From positions 1,054,001 to 1,118,000 of the forward strand of contig NC_014541.1 in NCBI RefSeq assembly GCF_000148645.1: a DNA stretch of 64,000 nt, written 5' to 3'. The notes below the pieces were generated by a model, which worked only from the letters and a program-made list of their open reading frames with translations, searched no databases and was not told the DNA's origin. Shown piece by piece: positions 25,033-56,600 of this stretch (the stretch's first letter is position 1; each line of letters begins with the position of its first letter). The position numbers were made by a program, and so were the translations under genes. The stretch is from Ferrimonas balearica DSM 9799 (GTDB taxonomy: Bacteria; Pseudomonadota; Gammaproteobacteria; Enterobacterales; Shewanellaceae).

Positions 25033-25075
25033 GCCGCCGTTGTGTTGCTCATTCGGGCAATGCAACTGCCTAAGT

Positions 25076-25265
25076 AAGGTAGAGGCGCACCGCCTATCAG
25101 TCCTCCGGAGTAGGGTGATTCCCGTTTATCCCGGACAAAAGGAGTCGGTGCCGAAGTGCGAAGGGCGTCATCCCGTCGTGCTGGGGTCGTATCGAATAGG
25201 TCCGACACTGCCATAGTAATCTCTGTCAGGACGACAGCAGTGGGTTTACTATGGAGCGCTACTGA
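25076..25265 (+). promoter_or_regulatory. Lysine riboswitch (L-box)
   Basis: The leader shows the conserved blocks of the lysine riboswitch in order: AGAGGCGC after the 5' arm of P1, GGAGTAGGG, AGTCGGTGCCGAAG, a GGGCGTCATCCC-type arm, the GCCATAGTAA to TTACTATGG helix, and GGAGCGCTACTGA. The four bases GTAG (25079-25082) pair with CTAC (25259-25262) to close P1. It lies 85 bases before an NhaC-family transporter. There is no T-run after it, so control is probably at translation initiation, as is common in gammaproteobacteria (inference). Confidence 0.9.
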
Positions 25266-25349
25266 AAGGACGGTGGATCACTTCTCATATCCCCCCGCGG
25301 TATCTATTGCCGTGTCAGTTGCCTCCATCTCATAACGACGACAATAAAG

Positions 25350-48782: not shown

Positions 48783-48956
48783 AGGTATCAGGAGAGTGGT
48801 GGCCCAGCCGCCCGCCGAAGAAGTAAATCTTTCAGGCGTCGGGAGTTCCCGATGAGGACTGTTACTGGACGAGCCTCTGGAGAGATCCATTGATTTGGAC
48901 GCCGAAGGCGCAAGCGGCTATGCCGTGAAACGCTCAGGCAAAAGGACAGAGGTGCT
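48783..48956 (+). promoter_or_regulatory. Tandem glycine riboswitch
   Basis: There are two consecutive glycine aptamers. The first runs about 48785-48868 with GGAGAGTGG, CGCCGAAG, TTCAGGC and GGACTGTTACTGGACGA. The second runs about 48873-48956 with CTCTGGAGAGATCC, ACGCCGAAGG, GCTCAGGCAAAAGGACAGAG. GCCTCTG and CAGAGGTGC close the second P1. The gene behind it is an alanine/glycine:Na+ symporter. The gap 48695-49078 holds this element, a 10-bp hairpin (48962-48985) and a Shine-Dalgarno hairpin. Confidence 0.93.
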
Positions 48957-48961
48957 GAATA

Positions 48962-48985: not shown

Positions 48986-49030
48986 CCTGCACTGCCGCTG
49001 TATCTCGGGCATTGGTCCCGGTCCATCATG

Positions 49031-49074
49031 GTTTCTCCTCTTTGTGTAGTGAGTCGTCACACAGGAGGAAAAAC
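49031..49074 (+). promoter_or_regulatory. Shine-Dalgarno-sequestering hairpin of the glycine transporter gene
   Basis: The segment 49031-49047 (GTTTCTCCTCTTTGTGT) is complementary to 49059-49074, which contains the AGGAGG ribosome site (49063-49068), leaving an 11-base loop. The start ATG is at 49079. This would hide the ribosome site and is the likely expression platform for the upstream riboswitch; the link between the two is inferred. Confidence 0.75.
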
Positions 49075-49078
49075 ACCC

Positions 49079-50440
49079 ATGAACTCACTCGAAAACGCAC
49101 TAGCCACACTGTCATCCTGGGTTTGGGGTCCGCCGTTGCTGATCCTGCTGCTGGGAACCGGTCTGTACTTCACCATCAATCTGGGCATGCTGCAGCTGCG
49201 CGGTCTGCCTCTGTCGTTCAAGCTGATGTTCCAGAAAAGCGGCAGCACCGGTGATGTCAGCCGCTTCAGCGCCCTGTGCACCGCCCTCGCGGCCACCATC
49301 GGTACCGGTAACATTGTCGGTGTGGCCACCGCGGTGAAGCTGGGCGGCCCTGGGGCCCTGTTCTGGATGTGGCTGGCGGGTTTGCTGGGTATGGCCACCA
49401 AGTACGCCGAGTGCATGCTGGCGGTGAAATACCGCCGCACCGATGACCGCGGCGAGCAGGTCGGTGGTCCGATGTACTACATCGCCCACGGCACCGGCCT
49501 GAACTGGCTGGCTAAGCTGTTTGCCCTGTTTACCCTGCTGGTGGCGTTTTTCGGTATCGGAACCTTCCCCCAGGTGAACGCCATTGTGGACGGCGCCAAT
49601 ATCGCCTTTGCCATCCCCAATACCCTGACCATGGTGGCACTGACCGTGCTGGTCGCGGCTGTGGTTCTGGGGGGCATTAAGCGCATTGCCACCGTCGCCA
49701 CAGCGTTGGTGCCGACCATGGCGATCGGTTACGTGCTGGCCTGTAGTGCACTGTTGCTGCTGAACTGGCAAGCGGTGCCCGGCGCCTTTGCCCTGATTTT
49801 TGAGTCGGCCTTCAACCCGGTTGCGGCCGGAGGCGGTTTTGCCGGCGCCACCGTGATGATGGCGATCCAGTTCGGTATTGCCCGCGGCGTGTTCTCCAAT
49901 GAAGCGGGCCTGGGCAGCGCGCCGATGGCCGCTGCTGCCGCCAAGACCGATTCTCCAGTGGAGCAGGGCCTAGTGTCGATGGCGGGACCGATGCTGGATA
50001 CCCTGATCATCTGCACCCTGACCGGTCTGGCGCTGGTGCTCAGTGGCGCCTGGCAGGGCGACACCGCCGGTGCGGCCATGACCTCTGAGGCGTTCAATAC
50101 CGCACTCTCCTCCTTTATCGGCACCAAGATCATCACCGTGGCGCTGCTGTTCTTCGCCTTCACCACCATCCTGGGCTGGTGTTACTACGGTGAACGGGCG
50201 GTGCTGTTCCTGGTGGGTGAACGCGGCCGCTTCCCCTACCGCGTGGTGTTTGTGGCGCTGGTGGCGGTCGGCGGCCTGCTGCAACTGGAGCTGATCTGGC
50301 TGCTGGCGGACGTGGTGAACGGCCTGATGGCGGTGCCGAATCTGATCGCGCTGCTGCTGTTGCGCAAGGAGATCCTGGCGGATACCCGTGCCTATCTGGC
50401 CGCTCGCGCACAGGCCGCGTCGGATCCACAACCGGCCTGA
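49079..50440 (+). CDS. Alanine/glycine:Na+ symporter (AGCS family)
   Basis: The 453-residue inner-membrane protein starts at the ATG behind AGGAGG. AGCS motifs are clear: GTGLYFTINLGMLQLRG, FSALCTALAATIGTGNIVGV, MWLAGLLGMATKYAECMLAV, GGPMYYIAHG and GVFSNEAGLGSAPMAAAAA. About eleven hydrophobic segments. It imports alanine or glycine with Na+. The tandem glycine riboswitch in the leader indicates that glycine is the physiological substrate (inference from regulation). It is followed by an unrelated lipoprotein gene. Confidence 0.94.
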   Translation: MNSLENALATLSSWVWGPPLLILLLGTGLYFTINLGMLQLRGLPLSFKLMFQKSGSTGDVSRFSALCTALAATIGTGNIVGVATAVKLGGPGALFWMWLAGLLGMATKYAECMLAVKYRRTDDRGEQVGGPMYYIAHGTGLNWLAKLFALFTLLVAFFGIGTFPQVNAIVDGANIAFAIPNTLTMVALTVLVAAVVLGGIKRIATVATALVPTMAIGYVLACSALLLLNWQAVPGAFALIFESAFNPVAAGGGFAGATVMMAIQFGIARGVFSNEAGLGSAPMAAAAAKTDSPVEQGLVSMAGPMLDTLIICTLTGLALVLSGAWQGDTAGAAMTSEAFNTALSSFIGTKIITVALLFFAFTTILGWCYYGERAVLFLVGERGRFPYRVVFVALVAVGGLLQLELIWLLADVVNGLMAVPNLIALLLLRKEILADTRAYLAARAQAASDPQPA

Positions 50441-50964: not shown

Positions 50965-51141
50965 TCACTGCGGGCGGCGGCACTCAAAGCCGTCAATCAG
51001 CCAGCGACGGTAGCGGCAGTTGTAGCAACTGACCAGCTCACTGTCGGTGTGTTCATCTTCGTCGTCGGGGCCAAATTGCGGGCATTGGCTGGCCAGCAGA
51101 CGCACTTCGGTGTAGGCGCTAAAACCTTTGTGCAGCGTCAT
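50965..51141 (-). CDS. Four-cysteine mini-protein at the end of the ECF operon
   Basis: This 58-residue protein starts at the ATG that shares one base with the TiaS-like stop (TGATG). Cysteines at 20, 39, 42 and 54 (SQC, SCYNC, FEC) are spaced as in a small zinc or iron-sulfur site, separated by an acidic stretch (GPDDEDEHTDSE). I do not recognise the family. The coupling to the TiaS-like gene suggests a joint function; archaeal TiaS carries a C-terminal zinc ribbon that the TiaS-like protein here appears to lack, so this could be a separate version of such a module (speculative). Confidence 0.72.
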   Translation of the reverse strand: MTLHKGFSAYTEVRLLASQCPQFGPDDEDEHTDSELVSCYNCRYRRWLIDGFECRRPQ

Positions 51142-51860
51142 CAGTACTCCTTCAGGTGGGGTTTCTGGGCATTGATCCAGCGGTCGCCATCGGCCACCAC
51201 CAGCAGGGTATTGCGGTGATCCCACCACACGGTTTTGACCTTATCCAGCAGGGTGATCATCGTATCCGGAGCCAGCACTTCACCGGCCGGTGTGGTCACC
51301 GCGTCGATCTCCGGGTGGGCCAGCAGTTGGGCCACCGTCAGTTGTTCTGCCTCGACTTTTAACCGCCCTTTGCAACGACCATCGCGGCCACTCAGGCGCA
51401 GGCCAACCCCGGCCAGCGCCCCAATCACACCGTCGCCGCGGCCACCGTGTTCACTGAGGTGGACGCCCAGCTCAAACGCCAGTTGGTAGGCCTCTGCGCG
51501 GGTCAGGACTTCGCGCTTTGCAGCCTGGCCAAAGGCGATGATGCGGGCCGCGTCGAGGGATTCGGCCGGGGCGATGCAGAGGCCCGGGTCGGAGCCAGCG
51601 GCAGATTGGGTCAGCAGGAACTGCTGCGCCATGCCGCTCAGGGTGCCGTAGTGGCGCGCTTCGGTCAGAACTTCGAAGCACATGGCGCTGTTGTGCGAGG
51701 TGTAGGGGATGTCCGGGTGCACATACAACTGGTGACGGGTAATGGCGGAACACTGGCCCAATGATTGTTGGTGAATGGCGTCGATCAGCTCCTGGGCCAG
51801 TTCACCGGTGCCCTTGGTGCCAATTTCGTCGGTGTCATCAATGCAGATAAAGAGTTTCAT
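51141..51860 (-). CDS. TiaS-like DDTD-domain protein in the ECF transporter operon
   Basis: The 239-residue protein begins MKLFICIDDTDEIGTKGTGE and continues HPDIPYTSHNSAMCFEVL, which closely follows the IDDTD and NPTIPYKTRGNGA segments of archaeal TiaS, the agmatine-transferring tRNA-Ile2 enzyme. GSDPGLCIAP matches its next domain. The OB and zinc-ribbon regions of archaeal TiaS are not recognisable in the C-terminal half. Because this genome has TilS (8278-9618), an AUA-decoding role is unlikely. Its reading frame is coupled to the S-component gene by a one-base overlap, so it probably acts on, or responds to, the transported compound (inference). Confidence 0.75.
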   Translation of the reverse strand: MKLFICIDDTDEIGTKGTGELAQELIDAIHQQSLGQCSAITRHQLYVHPDIPYTSHNSAMCFEVLTEARHYGTLSGMAQQFLLTQSAAGSDPGLCIAPAESLDAARIIAFGQAAKREVLTRAEAYQLAFELGVHLSEHGGRGDGVIGALAGVGLRLSGRDGRCKGRLKVEAEQLTVAQLLAHPEIDAVTTPAGEVLAPDTMITLLDKVKTVWWDHRNTLLVVADGDRWINAQKPHLKEY

Positions 51861-52426
51861 CAGCAGGCCTCCTGGGCCGGTTGCAGCTTAGCGGGTTGGC
51901 GGTTGGCCGGGATCAGTTGATGGTGGGCCAGGTGGCGCAGCAGGGTGGGCACCAGCAGGCAGGCTAAAGTGGCAAACACGCAGCCGCCAAACAGTTTCCA
52001 GCCCGCCTGCACCAGCATCACCTCGTAGGTGGCGCCGGCCAGGGCCAGCTCCAGAACGCCTTTGGCGGTCCAGGCGGCCACCCCAATAAAGGCCACCACC
52101 ATCGCCTGCAGGCGATACCAGGGGGCGAACGGCAGCAGCCACAGCGCCAGTTCGACCGCCACCGCCGGCATCATAAATTTGAGCAGCACCAGCGGCCCGC
52201 CTTTGCCCACCCCCAGCACCATGGCGAGCAGACCGGCGATCAGGCCACAGTAAAATACCGAACCTTTGACCGGCACCAGACCACGGGCCAGCAGCAGGGT
52301 GGTCATCAGGAAAAACATGGAGTGGCCGGTCAGGCCCAGCTTAAAGCGGAACACGGACTTCACCGCCACAAACAGCAGCGCCAGGGTGCCCAGCAACAGG
52401 GCATCGTTCAGAGAGCGCGCGTTCAT
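51860..52426 (-). CDS. Probable ECF-transporter substrate-binding (S) component
   Basis: A 188-residue membrane protein with about five to six hydrophobic segments (ALLLGTLALLFVAVKSVF, GLTGHSMFFLMTTLLLARGL, GLIAGLLAMVLGVGKGGPLV, LKFMMPAVAVELALWLLPF, AWTAKGVLELALAGATYEV). Size, topology and position between a T component and the rest of the operon identify it as an S component. It does not resemble BioY, ThiT, RibU, CbiM, QueT or other S families that I can recall by sequence. It overlaps the T gene by four bases (ATGA). Confidence 0.75.
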   Translation of the reverse strand: MNARSLNDALLLGTLALLFVAVKSVFRFKLGLTGHSMFFLMTTLLLARGLVPVKGSVFYCGLIAGLLAMVLGVGKGGPLVLLKFMMPAVAVELALWLLPFAPWYRLQAMVVAFIGVAAWTAKGVLELALAGATYEVMLVQAGWKLFGGCVFATLACLLVPTLLRHLAHHQLIPANRQPAKLQPAQEAC

Positions 52427-53049
52427 AAGATCTCCTTAAATCGGGTCAGGGGTTGGTCTTCCTGGTAACCCCGGCTGCGCAAGGCCAGGGCTTGTTGTTC
52501 GGAAAAGCGCATCATCTGCACCAGCAGCGGCAGCAGCACGGTTTGCCCTAGCTCGGCGTAACCCCGGGGACGCAGAAAGTCGCGGGCGGACAGGTGCGCG
52601 CCGCGCAATTTGGCGAGCTGAAACAGCAGTCGGGCTTCATTGACCATGGTCGGCAGCAAGGCCAGTGCGGCCTGCAGCACGGTGGCGTTGCGTCGCGACA
52701 GCCAGGGATCCAGCGCCCGGATCAGGGTTTGCCCCGGGGTCGACAGGTAGAACCACAGCCCCGGCAGGATCCCCAGCAGGATACGAACGCTGATAAGGCC
52801 AGCCATCGGCAGGCCGTCTGCCCCAAACTTGAAGGCGTAGACGGCGCTGATCAGCAGCCAGTTGGGCAGCATAAACAGCAGGGTACGCCGCAGTTGGCGT
52901 GGCCCTTTCGGCAGGGGCAGCAACACCGCCAGCCAGGCCAGCATAAGCGGCGCCAACAGCCAGTTTGGTCCGGACAGGCCCAGCAGGGTCAGCAACGGTA
53001 CGGCCAGTAGTTTGGCCTGGGTCAGACGCACCGGATCAGGCCGCCACAT
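52423..53049 (-). CDS. ECF transporter transmembrane (T) component
   Basis: The 208-residue EcfT-like protein (CbiQ family) begins MWRPDPVRLTQAKLLAVPLL and starts 14 bases inside the ATPase gene behind GGAGG. Membrane spans are visible in the N-terminal half (LLTLLGLSGPNWLLAPLMLA). The coupling helices carry KLRGAHL and the Ala-x-x-x-Arg-Gly type signature in ALALRSRGYQ, which contact the two ATPase domains. It joins the S component to the ATPases. Confidence 0.86.
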   Translation of the reverse strand: MWRPDPVRLTQAKLLAVPLLTLLGLSGPNWLLAPLMLAWLAVLLPLPKGPRQLRRTLLFMLPNWLLISAVYAFKFGADGLPMAGLISVRILLGILPGLWFYLSTPGQTLIRALDPWLSRRNATVLQAALALLPTMVNEARLLFQLAKLRGAHLSARDFLRPRGYAELGQTVLLPLLVQMMRFSEQQALALRSRGYQEDQPLTRFKEIL

Positions 53050-54298
53050 GTACACCTCCGTTATCGATATGCCAGGCCAACCCGGTATCGGGTAGGGCAC
53101 GATGGCTGGCGATGACAATGGCCATCCCCCGCTGGCACTGGGTGATCAACAGTTCCCACAGCCGGGTTTGCGCGTTGGCATCGAGTCCGGCCAGTGGGTC
53201 ATCCAGCAACAGCAGATCCGGCTTGGCGGCCAGTTGGGCCAGCAGCGCCAGTTGATGCTGTTGGCCGTAGGAGAGGTGCAGGGGCGAACGCTGGGCCAGA
53301 TGACCGAGCCCCAGTGTGTCGAGCCAGTGCGACACCTCGTTTAGGCTCTGGCCGGAGCGACGCAGGCTGAAGCCGATCTCCTCCGCCACAGTGGCGGCAA
53401 ACAGTTGGCGGTCGGGTCGTTGCAGCAGGCAGCCAATACGGCCTGCGGCGCCTCTTTTGCCGCGTTGTCCGGGACGACGTCCCAGCACTGAAACCTCGCC
53501 CTCAAGGCGATGCTCCAATCCGGCCAGAGCCTGCAACAGAGAACTTTTCCCACTGCCATTGGCGCCACTGAGGGTGACGCATTCACCCGCCCGCAGCGCC
53601 AGCCTCGGCAGCACCAGCAGTGCGGTATCGTCGGTGCGCAGCAGCGCATCCTCCAGGGCCAGAACGTTGTGGCCGCGGGGCAGTTGTGGCCATCGGACGA
53701 GGGTAACCGGCTCGGTATGGCCGAGCGGATAGTGGCGCGGATTGAGGCGGGCAAACGCCTCCGCGTGGTGTTCGGCAATCACCATGCTGACGCCTTTCTG
53801 GCGCAGGCTGTCGAGGGTGTCCAACACCACCGCCAGTGCCTCCGGGTCCAGCTGGGCCCAGGGTTCGTCAAGCAGCAGCAGGTTCGGTTCGGCCACCAGT
53901 TGTGCGGCCAGCAGCAGGCGGTATTTCTGTCCCTGCGACAGCTGGGCCACCGGGGTGTCCAGCGGCAGCTTCAGCCCTACCTGGGCCAGCGCGGTTTCGA
54001 TACGGGGACGCATCTGTGCCGGTGGCACAGCGAGGTGTTCGAGCCACAGTGCCACTTCCGGGCCGATGCGTTCGCGCATCAGCTGCAGCGCCGGGTCCTG
54101 CATCACCAGGCCGATACGGGGGGGACGGGTGATCTGGCCGGAGGGGCTCTCCAGCAGATCGGCAATCTGCAAAAGCAGGGTGCTTTTGCCGGAGCCCGTG
54201 GGCCCGCTGAGGATCATCACCTCACCGGGCGCCAGGGTGAATGAGATCGACAGAGCCGGGTTACCCCGGCTCAACGTCAACTGGTCAAGTTGCAGCAC
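53036..54298 (-). CDS. Fused double ABC ATPase of the ECF transporter
   Basis: The 420-residue cytosolic protein has two ATPase domains in tandem, i.e. EcfA and EcfA' in one chain. Domain 1: Walker A SGPTGSGKST (31-40), signature LSQGQKYRLL, Walker B LLLLDEPWAQLD, H-loop IAEHH. Domain 2: Walker A SGANGSGKSS (near 242), signature LSYGQQHQLA, Walker B LLLLDDPLAGLD, H-loop IASHR. The catalytic Glu of domain 2 is Asp, so the two ATP sites are probably unequal. The gene follows the TonB receptor by three bases. Confidence 0.9.
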   Translation of the reverse strand: MLQLDQLTLSRGNPALSISFTLAPGEVMILSGPTGSGKSTLLLQIADLLESPSGQITRPPRIGLVMQDPALQLMRERIGPEVALWLEHLAVPPAQMRPRIETALAQVGLKLPLDTPVAQLSQGQKYRLLLAAQLVAEPNLLLLDEPWAQLDPEALAVVLDTLDSLRQKGVSMVIAEHHAEAFARLNPRHYPLGHTEPVTLVRWPQLPRGHNVLALEDALLRTDDTALLVLPRLALRAGECVTLSGANGSGKSSLLQALAGLEHRLEGEVSVLGRRPGQRGKRGAAGRIGCLLQRPDRQLFAATVAEEIGFSLRRSGQSLNEVSHWLDTLGLGHLAQRSPLHLSYGQQHQLALLAQLAAKPDLLLLDDPLAGLDANAQTRLWELLITQCQRGMAIVIASHRALPDTGLAWHIDNGGVHVAA

Positions 54299-54301
54299 GA
54301 C

Positions 54302-56407
54302 TTACCATTGGCCCTTCAGCTGCAGCAGCCATTGCCGACCCGGTTGGGGCAGGGCGCGGCTGGTTTCATACAGCTCATCGAACAGGTTGGTCACGGTGAA
54401 CTGCCAGCTCAGGCCGTCAACCGGCAGCGGCTGACTGAAGCTGATGTCCACCAGCACGTAGTCGTCCAGTTCCTGCTGCTCGCCGCTCTTGTAGAAGACC
54501 TGGTCCATCACGTACTGACTGTCCAGACGAGCGGTCAGTTGCCACGGCAGGTAAGCGGTGACATTGGCCTTCACGGTGTGCTTGGGACGGTACTGCAGGG
54601 TGGTGCGATTCTGGTCGTCCTCACCACGGTTCTCGGCGTCGAGGTAGCTGTATCCCAGCATCCAGTGCACCGACTCGAAGGTCTGGTTCTGCCAGCTGGT
54701 GTCCACACCGGTAAAGCGGTAATGGGCGTAGTTGCGCAGAACGTCGTTGTCGTCCTTCTCGATGTAGTTGGCCACATCGCTGTAGTAAGCACTCAGTTCG
54801 ATGCGGTTGGTCTGGCCCAGGTATTGGGTCAGGCCCAGCTCGTAGTGCTCGGTGGTTTCCGGCTCAAGTTCCACATCGGCTGCCGCCTCGTACTGGTTTT
54901 CCAGAGTCGGGTAGCGGATCTTACGAGCGGCACTGGCGCTCAGCTTGGTGCTGTCAGTCACGTAGTAGTAACCGGAGCCCAGCAGGCTGTGGCGCAGGGT
55001 GTCGTCCATGTCGTTGTCGTGCAGACCGCCACTCAGGGTCAGGCCGCCAGACTGGCTGGGCTGCCACTGGTATTCCGCCACGATGGACTGGGTACGTTGG
55101 TCGCGCTGCTGCATCGGGTCGCCACTGCCGCCACCGGAGCCGTCGCCACCGCCAGTGCCACCACCGGAACCGTCGCCCCCGCCAGTGCCGCCACCGGAAC
55201 CATCGCCACCGCCAGTGCCACCACCGGAACCGTCGCCACCGCCAGTACCACCACCGGAACCACTGCCGTCACCAGAGCCACCGCCAGTACCGCCGCCGGT
55301 ACCGCCGCCAGAGCCTGTGCCGCCGGCAAAGGTGCTGGCAGAGAGGTCATCCAGCTCGGAGCGCCAGCGCTGCTGTTCCAGCATGTAAGCGGTGGTCAGC
55401 AGGTGAGCGTCCTGCTTCCAGACCCATTGCAGGTTGATGCCCTGATTGGCCAGGTGCACGTCGGTACGGTCCAGCGCCTTGGCCAGGGTGTCATCGGCGT
55501 AGGTACGGCGCTCTTCGTCCTGCTCGTGGTAGTAGACGTAGCCGCGCAGCTGATGCTGCTCGGTCAGGTTGTGGCTGGCGCGGGCCTGGATGCCAAAGCG
55601 GTCCTGATTTTCGATGCGCTCCACTTCGCTCTTCTTGCTGTCCACCTGGATGGGGTTGCCCTTCTCCAGGGTGCCCCAGTTGGCGGTCAGTCCGAGTTCG
55701 GTGTCTTCGCTCAGCTGCCAGTCGTATTCGCCCAGCAGGCTGTGTTGTTCGTAGTCGCTGTTGTTGCGGGTGCCGCCATCTTCCTGGGCCTGGGCGTCGA
55801 AGTCGGAGGGCAGGCGGAAGCCGTCGCGGCCATAGCCCTGGTACTGCAGCAGGCCAGAGTGGGTCTGGTCGCCCAGTGCCACACCGGCGCCCGCTTGCCA
55901 GGCACCGTCGTTGCCGCCACCGGCATTGGCGCTGAAGCTGTGACCGTCGAAGGATTTGCGGGTGATGATGTTGATAACACCGCCTGCACCACCCGGGCCG
56001 TACAGCAGGGAGCCGCCGCCGGTGACCACTTCAACCCGCTCGATCAGGTTAACCGGCAGGGTGGCCGGGTCGAACTCACCGTCGCTGCCGTTGTTGTACG
56101 GCACGCCGTTGATCAGGAAGGTCAGGTGGCGGGTTTTAAAGCCGCGGGCTTCAATGCGGGCCGGGCCTTTATTGGCGTTGCGGATGTGCAGGCCGGGGAC
56201 CTCCTGCAGCACCTGCTCCAGGCTCTGGGCACCGGACAGCTCAATGTCGGAACGGCTGACGGTGTACTGGGTCGCGGCTTCGCGCTGGGCTGTGGGCTGG
56301 TCAGCATGAACCACCACCACTTCATCAATCCCCCCGGCAGAGACCGCCAGGGCCGGAAGCGGCATCAGCATGGCGACCAGAATGGGGTTGAGTCCAAATT
56401 TCAACAT
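54302..56407 (-). CDS. TonB-dependent receptor with glycine-rich loop, first gene of the ECF operon
   Basis: The 701-residue outer-membrane receptor has a signal peptide (LNPILVAMLMPLPALAVSA), a plug domain (DEVVVVHADQ, LSGAQSLEQVLQEVPGLHIR, VEVVTGGGSLLYGPGGAGGV) and a 22-strand barrel ending LQLKGQW. Residues about 360-432 form a Gly-rich insertion of near-identical 10-residue repeats, GGGTGGGDGS, between two predicted strands, so probably in a surface loop. The fixed link to an ECF module implies that its ligand crosses the outer membrane by TonB and the inner membrane by ECF, as for cobalamin-sized or metal-bound compounds; the identity is unknown. Confidence 0.9.
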   Translation of the reverse strand: MLKFGLNPILVAMLMPLPALAVSAGGIDEVVVVHADQPTAQREAATQYTVSRSDIELSGAQSLEQVLQEVPGLHIRNANKGPARIEARGFKTRHLTFLINGVPYNNGSDGEFDPATLPVNLIERVEVVTGGGSLLYGPGGAGGVINIITRKSFDGHSFSANAGGGNDGAWQAGAGVALGDQTHSGLLQYQGYGRDGFRLPSDFDAQAQEDGGTRNNSDYEQHSLLGEYDWQLSEDTELGLTANWGTLEKGNPIQVDSKKSEVERIENQDRFGIQARASHNLTEQHQLRGYVYYHEQDEERRTYADDTLAKALDRTDVHLANQGINLQWVWKQDAHLLTTAYMLEQQRWRSELDDLSASTFAGGTGSGGGTGGGTGGGSGDGSGSGGGTGGGDGSGGGTGGGDGSGGGTGGGDGSGGGTGGGDGSGGGSGDPMQQRDQRTQSIVAEYQWQPSQSGGLTLSGGLHDNDMDDTLRHSLLGSGYYYVTDSTKLSASAARKIRYPTLENQYEAAADVELEPETTEHYELGLTQYLGQTNRIELSAYYSDVANYIEKDDNDVLRNYAHYRFTGVDTSWQNQTFESVHWMLGYSYLDAENRGEDDQNRTTLQYRPKHTVKANVTAYLPWQLTARLDSQYVMDQVFYKSGEQQELDDYVLVDISFSQPLPVDGLSWQFTVTNLFDELYETSRALPQPGRQWLLQLKGQW
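55121..55335 (-). repeat. 30-bp tandem repeats coding the Gly-rich loop
   Basis: About four nearly exact 30-base units, each coding GGGTGGGDGS, with degenerate units on both sides. Such arrays change copy number by slippage, and because the unit is a multiple of three the frame is kept. Confidence 0.88.
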
Positions 56408-56514: not shown

Positions 56515-56600
56515 TGACTACAGGGGTGAAAAGTCCGAATTGCGCTGGACAGAATGTCTCGCCTGAGGGCCATTGTGACCCGGGTTCAGGACAGTTTGGC

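Follow-up and report, generated by a model that had tools for sequence, protein, structure and literature searches.

A TonB receptor, ECF transporter and TiaS-like protein operon of Ferrimonas balearica as a probable import route for a tungsten compound

What is taken up by an operon that joins a TonB-dependent outer-membrane receptor and an energy-coupling factor (ECF) transporter to a relative of TiaS, the archaeal tRNA(Ile2) agmatinylcytidine synthetase? The six open reading frames (ORFs) in question lie at positions 56407-50965, on the minus strand, of a 64,000-nucleotide (nt) stretch of the Ferrimonas balearica DSM 9799 genome, called the window here. An earlier note on this DNA had seen an uptake system with an open ligand. 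Our analyses agree with uptake; the ligand, in contrast, need not stay open, because regulation by a riboswitch and a promoter dyad, gene neighbours and co-occurrence point to tungsten or molybdenum (W/Mo). A W/Mo metabolism context of the system around the TiaS-like protein, named TiaSL in the following, is strongly supported. For the operon itself, we consider it probable that it forms an energised import route across both membranes for a tungsten (possibly molybdenum) compound, most likely a complex.

Rechecking the ORFs of the window verified all six genes at their coordinates (Table 1). They follow each other in the order TonB receptor, fused ECF ATPases, T component, S component, TiaSL and a mini-protein with four cysteines. 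Recomputed junctions showed a 3-nt gap between the receptor and ATPase genes and then overlaps of 14 nt (ATPase/T component, with the T start ATG at 53049), 4 nt (T/S), 1 nt (S/TiaSL) and 1 nt (TiaSL/mini-protein). The longest frame of the T component, with a TTG start at 53118, would give an 83-nt overlap with the ATPase gene. The six-gene operon of the earlier note was thus reproduced with its junctions, and gap and overlaps bear out its description as one translational unit.

TiaSL was found in 15 of 60 related genomes, namely in 11/14 Ferrimonas and 4/13 Shewanella genomes. ATPase, T component, S component, TiaSL and mini-protein occurred together in all 14 relatives (own genome excluded), and a matching TonB receptor in 11 of these; it was missing in L026, L028 and L029, and in L028 the mini-protein gene is placed upstream of the ATPase gene. 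With this set kept in 14 relatives and with the neighbour-linkage control described below, chance adjacency of the operon genes was rejected. In Pseudomonadota at large TiaSL is rare (4/398 genomes), and it is commoner in Bacillota (21/299, including three weak or fragmentary matches). Scanning species genomes yielded at least 529 TiaSL relatives among at least 590 stretches, from which the best 80 loci were retained. Among the matches listed, hosts include Geobacter, Geomonas, Desulfuromonas, Desulfobacterium, Syntrophomonas, Sporomusa, Pelotomaculum, Neobacillus, Oceanospirillum, a Kiritimatiellales metagenome-assembled genome and others. Plasmid records contained TiaSL twice in the haloarchaeal Natribaculum and once in Pimelobacter, and six stretches from viral contigs held no TiaSL relative. 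The Pimelobacter record (L016, plasmid pC-N39, circular, 3.8 kb) combines TiaSL with a divergent gene that resembles an S component by eye, missed by the S profile, and with a very glycine-rich protein encoded next. One record filed as Marinobacter nauticus DP3N21-5 (L034, same contig as L020, G007) probably bears a wrong organism name, since across the operon and the two genes that flank it, its proteins are 72-92% identical to those of the Ferrimonas window; the contig was classed as the same genus.

The transporter genes were counted in 93 TiaSL loci, without duplicates, Natribaculum and Pimelobacter and with profiles built from the same loci. ECF genes with an S component were present in 43 loci and a FecCD permease with a Peripla_BP_2 binding protein in 28; four had an S component alone and two a partial FecCD set. 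TiaSL is the constant part, and the transporter alternates between TonB receptor plus ECF module and FecCD permease with MolA-like binding protein. The permanent linkage asserted by the earlier note therefore largely holds within Ferrimonas and Shewanella, but across phyla the transporter is swapped. In the S-only loci (L058:6228-6806, L086:9993-10580, L098, L182) the S component stands beside TiaSL with no recognised ECF ATPase or T genes nearby, hence it is perhaps solitary or uses a distant ECF module. The FecCD operon of Firmicutes often starts with a membrane-anchored immunoglobulin (Ig)-like (Big_5) protein; in some cases a giant surface protein comes before it, and the one tested (L052) featured S-layer domains. 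Both Natribaculum loci contain the same permease and binding-protein families. The best PDB matches of the Firmicutes binding protein were 4ovk (unnamed) and then MolA HI_1472 (2.9e-24), a protein that binds molybdate and tungstate according to the accessible text of PMC4031551. Nickel- and iron-binding proteins score as well, and MolA likeness alone thus does not settle the ligand. The Firmicutes version resembles the FecCD-type molybdate importer MolBC-A of Haemophilus in its FecCD permease, ATPase and MolA-related binding protein, whereas that text mentions no TiaSL, mini-protein, surface Ig protein or ECF form for MolBC-A.

How are these loci regulated? An Rfam scan of 41 of the 93 loci detected the molybdenum/tungsten riboswitch RF01055 in 20 loci (32 RNAs) and in none of eight control windows (144 kb from six genomes; p 0.015). 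In 18 of the 41, it heads, above the gathering score, the same-strand gene row that contains TiaSL. In Geobacter-type loci and others related to them (L069, L076, L087, L095, L097, L106, L109) it directly precedes TiaSL, and elsewhere among the 18 an Ig protein, a giant surface protein or a permease; in the other two loci it stands before tupA (L105) or an unrelated gene (L108). Alignment of 22 RNAs gave 28 pairs, and for 19 of them at least one sequence carries changes in both partners. Between the P2 3' strand and the next stem, E. coli moaA RNA forms an extra hairpin, whereas all 22 aligned RNAs have only 4-5 nt there, and the other ten look alike by eye; this comparison rests on four printed RNAs and the spacing count of the 22, the E. 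coli row being misplaced in the fuller alignment. We take the extra hairpin to be P3, and RNAs of TiaSL loci would thus be P3-less. Excerpts of PMC2408646 state that most organisms with this RNA have a single copy in the genome, that the P3 stem is absent from 58 of 176 and that in 17 of 19 organisms its absence coincides with tungsten-cofactor metabolism; the ligand of the P3-less form was a proposal of that work. For Pelobacter carbinolicus, TonB channels near cobalamin and molybdopterin riboswitches are reported, with metal transport suggested, in the available part of PMC3543383.

Neighbouring genes point in the same direction. Clustering of TiaSL neighbours yielded TupA- and TupB-like proteins, MoaA, MoaC, MOSC and a homologue of MosB from the molybdenum storage protein (MoSto). 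Of one or few members checked, MoaA and MoaC scored above their NCBIfam cut-offs and MOSC above its Pfam cut-off; the MosB homologue matched the solved storage protein at E 4.5e-75. With seven duplicate loci dropped, 65 non-gamma TiaSL windows (16.0 kb on average) were compared with 60 control windows of 18 kb from seven TiaSL genomes. In a first count, at least one gene of TupA-like, MoSto, MoaA or MoaC type was present in 20/65 against 1/60 (Fisher p 5.7e-6). Two of the 20, L057 and L109, were rejected as phosphate permeases (PstA, PstC above cut-off), and the corrected count was 18/65 against 1/60 (p 2.8e-5); one control window gave a MoaA-profile match of 103 bits, below the threshold of 150. 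The clearest case is L047, with TiaSL, TupA-like, TupB-like, ATPase, MoaA, MoaC and MOSC genes in one row. In analogy to MosAB of Azotobacter, the MosB homologues would belong to a storage protein, which is no part of the window operon. Outside Azotobacter we noted them at L091:12896-13735, L053:10081-10887, L077:7260-8108, L087:7480-8292, L094:13685-14515, L099:7259-8107 and L107:697-1530, mostly adjoining a 77-residue protein without family; one was tested against PDB. In 2019, MoSto was described as without known homologues in databases (PMC6448029, in part).

The same genes also co-occur at the genome level. Among 299 Bacillota genomes, 18 of which contain TiaSL at E <1e-35, the tungsten-oxidoreductase family PF01314 was present in 173, including 18/18 TiaSL genomes, and TupA-like genes in 148, including 15/18; the TupA-negative TiaSL genomes G246, G249 and G304 still have PF01314. 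MoSto occurred in six genomes, all TiaSL-positive. With the centre genome G114 excluded and the weak or fragmentary G313, G317 and G328 counted as TiaSL-negative, TiaSL genomes exceeded the others for MoSto (6/17 vs 0/281, p 1.3e-8), PF01314 (17/17 vs 155/281, p 6.8e-5) and TupA (14/17 vs 133/281, p 0.005). In Shewanella, TupA was found in 37/37 TiaSL genomes and in 19/23 others (p 0.018), and in the 60 relatives TupA-like genes accompanied 15/15 TiaSL-positive genomes against 13/45 others.

The presence of pterin genes raises the question of whether the cofactor itself could be the cargo. Organic cofactors are a frequent cargo of TonB-dependent receptors, ECF and FecCD systems, and the chemistry of TiaS, which acts on cytosine, suits a heterocyclic carbonyl. 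An external pterin, molybdopterin or finished W/Mo cofactor might then be salvaged, with TiaSL activating the pterin lactam carbonyl. Linkage of MoaA and MoaC to TiaSL in several loci would fit this, as would the riboswitch, which is thought to sense the cofactor and not the metal (PMC2408646, accessible sections). However, the linkage to MoSto and a TupA-like importer points to the metal, and cells with MoaA and MoaC beside TiaSL make the pterin themselves. We hence regard cofactor salvage as rather improbable.

Furthermore, a promoter element is shared with tupA-like genes. Dyads of the form GGACAwwTTGTCC precede many Shewanella and Ferrimonas receptor genes. A matrix built from receptor promoters only was run on 21 tup loci and matched the tupA promoter in 10/10 Shewanella loci at 16.6 bits or more, four of them from genomes without TiaSL. 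It reached at least 12 bits in 9/11 Ferrimonas loci and 10.0 and 10.9 bits in the other two; the two tup loci of the own genome gave 10.0 and 14.8 bits. Other strong matches were the receptor promoters themselves and, in three Ferrimonas loci, a site of up to 20.8 bits located about 1.75 kb downstream from where tupA starts. The 175,018 nt contain 41 sites at 13 bits, whereas mononucleotide shuffles have 2.0 on average. The earlier note had proposed to look for a conserved regulatory RNA or regulator, and a conserved regulatory element is supported. In 28 of 37 TiaSL-positive Shewanella genomes, tupA lies within 20 kb (10-19 kb) of the TiaSL operon, and six of the other nine have the two on different contigs. 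Next to tupABC-like genes and mobA of Shewanella, a response regulator of sigma-54 type and a sensor kinase with a Cache domain (L249:3924-7464, L251:12247-15813) are candidates for regulators of the common dyad; MobA scored above its cut-off. In the own genome, a search for a wider dyad regulon gave five sites against one for a control pattern and led nowhere. Eight places with two dyad sites were selected in Shewanella, and five of them hold the operon with TiaSL (L129, L131, L132, L134, L135). L133 shows only a receptor end at the stretch edge, L128 lies within recQ, and L130 (G070) contains, besides the dyad, only the ATPase gene and a receptor fragment, in a genome where TiaSL was not found; L130 is possibly a decaying operon copy.

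From this, the following mechanism may be proposed. The TonB receptor would capture a tungsten compound and admit it across the outer membrane, the S component would take over the cargo in the inner membrane, and ECF ATPases and T component would drive it inward. TiaSL could then use ATP to modify the cargo in a manner like that of the TiaS kinase and so make the metal usable, and the four-cysteine mini-protein might bind the product and pass it on to cofactor synthesis or storage. For the Ferrimonas genome we infer tungsten as cargo, its complexed state, the TiaSL reaction and the role of the mini-protein. We assume a complex since there is also a TupABC-like importer, which carries the same dyad. 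The P3-less RNAs, the dyad shared with tupA-like genes and the co-occurrence of PF01314 speak for tungsten rather than molybdenum. TupABC, ModABC and WtpABC would share these metals, and the tupABC-like set of Shewanella carries the same dyad as the operon; they import free oxyanions via a periplasmic binding protein, however, whereas none of the six operon genes encodes a periplasmic oxyanion-binding protein with permease and the operon instead has an outer-membrane receptor, S component, TiaSL and mini-protein.

A number of findings weigh against this proposal. The window holds no RF01055 at the gathering score, and none at E ≤1 between 50400 and 57700; the RNA was missing in 21 of the 41 scanned loci, and 16 of the 93 TiaSL loci lack any of the transporter types. 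The window dyads are weaker than those of Shewanella, and of the two tupA-like genes in this genome, the closer one is about 386 kb away from TiaSL. In 60 Shewanella genomes, the two-site dyad pattern as such is not enriched, since its reversed form gives more matches (about 75, against 43 among the matches listed, in 31/60 genomes). Neighbour and transporter profiles were built from the linked loci themselves, a bias toward the test set, and the co-occurrence tests ignore shared descent, same-clade genomes not being independent. As PF01314 also matches in E. coli, for which no tungsten use is known (PMC13328260, accessible part), the family does not prove tungsten use. Since all 15 TiaSL-positive relatives have TupA-like genes, plain tungstate does not require the operon in these genomes. 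Moreover, four TupA-like proteins scored 167-239 bits against a cut-off of 400, and TupB 166-178 against 320; the names tupA and tupB follow their best or sole match to a tungstate family, and the specificity of these genes is not proven.

The latter scores bear on molybdenum as the main cargo, an alternative that we rate as unlikely, if somewhat less so than before these scores below the cut-off led us to raise its odds slightly. A molybdenum cargo would fit the MolA-like binding protein of Firmicutes, a MOT1 molybdate permease after the mini-protein gene in L052, and MoSto, which is named for molybdenum, though it can accumulate tungsten too (PMC6448029, excerpt). The riboswitches, by contrast, are of the P3-less kind, TupA was the sole NCBIfam match of the four TupA-like proteins checked, and PF01314 occurs in all 18 TiaSL Bacillota.

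The receptor itself might suggest a corrinoid. Plug PF07715 and barrel PF00593 both scored above their Pfam cut-offs, and its best, if weak, PDB matches were BtuB, which also speaks against a tungsten cargo; FecCD permeases, too, include BtuC. However, against the BtuB vitamin B12 family TIGR01779 (TonB-B12) the receptor reached 142 bits, far from the cut-off of 599.7. No cobalamin riboswitch was detected in the window at gathering score, nor in the 41 scanned TiaSL loci, 20 of which have the W/Mo riboswitch instead. Uptake of a vitamin B12-like compound was rejected on these grounds and is very improbable.

The ECF parts are well recognisable. The 420-residue ATPase protein contains two ABC_tran stretches in a single chain, as expected for the two ATPases of an ECF module, and the T component matches PF02361 CbiQ with E 2.5e-11 (44.1 bits, cut-off 25). 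The S component had no Pfam or NCBIfam match. Its AlphaFold model (predicted local distance difference test, pLDDT, 91.6) resembled the ECF S component 5edl in a Foldseek search of PDB (E 2.8e-4, template modelling score 0.69), the sole match at E ≤0.001; other S components follow at E ≥0.16, with 4hzu_S, RibU, only at E ≥0.25. The model thus supports an S component fold. In 28 relatives, G34 is invariant and H35 nearly so. With CbiQ-domain T component, two ABC domains and S component fold, the operon resembles CbiMNQO and vitamin ECF transporters, and it differs from them by an S component without a named family, by the tie to TonB receptor and TiaSL and by the W/Mo context. That the S component is unassigned, as claimed earlier, agrees with its lack of a match to any known sequence family.

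TiaSL is only distantly related to TiaS. Its best NCBIfam score was obtained with methanogenesis marker protein 11 (TIGR03280, 32.3 bits), far below the cut-off of 255.8. The TiaS profile NF040849 gave 28.5 bits against a cut-off of 600 and covered residues 1-156 only; on this score, TiaSL was rejected as a true TiaS member. The TiaSL model (pLDDT 94.0) matched TiaS 3amt with E 1.2e-9, a root-mean-square deviation of 2.3 over 158 columns and 26% identity, and so probably comprises the TiaS kinase and ferredoxin-like domains. Across 41 sequences, D8, D9, T10, D11, T18 and G19 do not vary; TiaSL thus keeps the DDTD stretch and T18, which we take to be the autophosphorylated residue of TiaS. The TiaS kinase domain activates an oxygen through phosphorylation. 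TiaSL differs from TiaS by its other C-terminal part, without profile match past residue 156, and by its place in bacterial transport operons. These domains would be the argument for uptake and modification of a nucleoside- or tRNA-related compound, a link suggested by the earlier note that found no support beyond the distant TiaSL fold. Given the partial TiaS match and a genomic context of W/Mo metabolism, we consider it the least probable of all readings. In Syntrophomonas-type loci (L100, L104, L111), two or three TiaSL-cluster genes stand in tandem, and the L104 genome has one TiaSL copy that is only distantly alike (E 6.6e-39).

The mini-protein had no Pfam or NCBIfam match. Among the matches listed, most relatives show the typical pattern C..F..DDEDE...SC[YFV]NC..RRW...C in the alignment, and in 67 of the 93 loci it lies within 1.5 kb of TiaSL. 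That TiaSL and the mini-protein process or sense the cargo can reasonably be inferred.

The receptor contains a 69-residue glycine-rich insert with GDGSGG at residues 391, 401, 411 and 421. In 2,067 ORFs chosen in TiaSL loci (527,680 residues), the motif GDG[ST]GG was found in 16 of 35 Ig-like surface proteins near TiaSL, towards their N termini, with duplicate loci accounting for three of the 16. Two of the 35 receptors in the receptor cluster also had it, and no other kind of protein did; six-frame segments of control windows (537,824 residues) had none. Eight Geobacter-type receptors lacked such an insert. A common cargo-binding role of receptor insert and Ig-protein motif is possible, as is a low-complexity coincidence, and the tie between the two is only suggestive. 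We may thus speculate, although we would rather bet against it, that bacteria and haloarchaea have a dedicated, energised 'tungstophore-like' pathway of surface trap, exchangeable importers, kinase and metallochaperone. GDGSGGG glycine loops, in the Ferrimonas receptor insert or at the N terminus of the Firmicutes Ig protein, would trap a tungsten complex, and TonB receptor plus ECF module or FecCD would import it. The TiaS-fold kinase might then phosphorylate the ligand or the oxo-metal and so release tungsten, which the four-cysteine metallochaperone would take and feed to tungstopterin synthesis and MoSto storage.

Tungsten enzymes such as formate dehydrogenases, aldehyde oxidoreductases and benzoyl-CoA reductases drive much of anaerobic carbon metabolism. 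To our knowledge, tungsten uptake has been described only for free oxyanions via TupABC, WtpABC, ModABC and alike, and we know of no outer-membrane route for this metal. In the literature searched, which was mostly openly accessible with few subscription papers or preprints, no TonB- or ECF-dependent W/Mo importer with a TiaS-like protein is described; within these bounds the system is undescribed, as the earlier note had it. It consists of known building blocks in a new combination and, if our reading is right, would be a new route for a metal. Gram-negative bacteria would then actively pull a tungsten compound across the outer membrane, and complexed tungsten would therefore exist in nature and be sought there. 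Our reading would also give functions to a widespread orphan protein (at least 529 matching stretches), an orphan S component and an orphan mini-protein. The speculative tungstophore-like pathway would be the first outer-membrane tungsten transport known to us and would show the TiaS kinase fold in a chemistry new to it.

Table 1. Features of the operon and its promoter region in the window
Feature	Position	Strand	Basis or remark
TonB-dependent outer-membrane receptor, 701 residues	54302..56407	-	plug PF07715 and barrel PF00593
Glycine-rich receptor insert, residues 362-430	55118..55324	-	GDGSGG, four times
Fused double ECF ATPase, 420 residues	53036..54298	-	two ABC_tran stretches
ECF T component, ATG start, alternative starts upstream (longest TTG 53118)	52423..53049	-	PF02361 CbiQ
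ECF S component, 188 residues, without sequence family	51860..52426	-	predicted fold (AlphaFold model)
TiaSL, 239 residues: predicted TiaS kinase and ferredoxin-like domains, own C-terminal part	51141..51860	-	profiles, model
Mini-protein, 58 residues, four cysteines, acidic DDEDE stretch	50965..51141	-	alignment of relatives
Operator-like dyad AGACATTCTGTCC upstream of receptor gene	56547..56559	-	matrix from such sites finds tupA promoters
Second, degenerate dyad GGTCACAATGGCC	56568..56580	-	weaker than Shewanella sites

Further neighbours were seen in some loci only, namely an MtrC-like cytochrome, a sigma-54 activator, and HdrD-like and MenF/YhhQ-like proteins. In Ferrimonas sediminum, an MtrC/MtrF-like outer-membrane multihaem cytochrome (L038:9975-12239) is located downstream of the operon. 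Elsewhere in the window, a glycine riboswitch (48867-48959) lies upstream of a sodium:alanine symporter-family gene (49028-50440), and a lysine riboswitch with 108 bits was found at 25072-25269.

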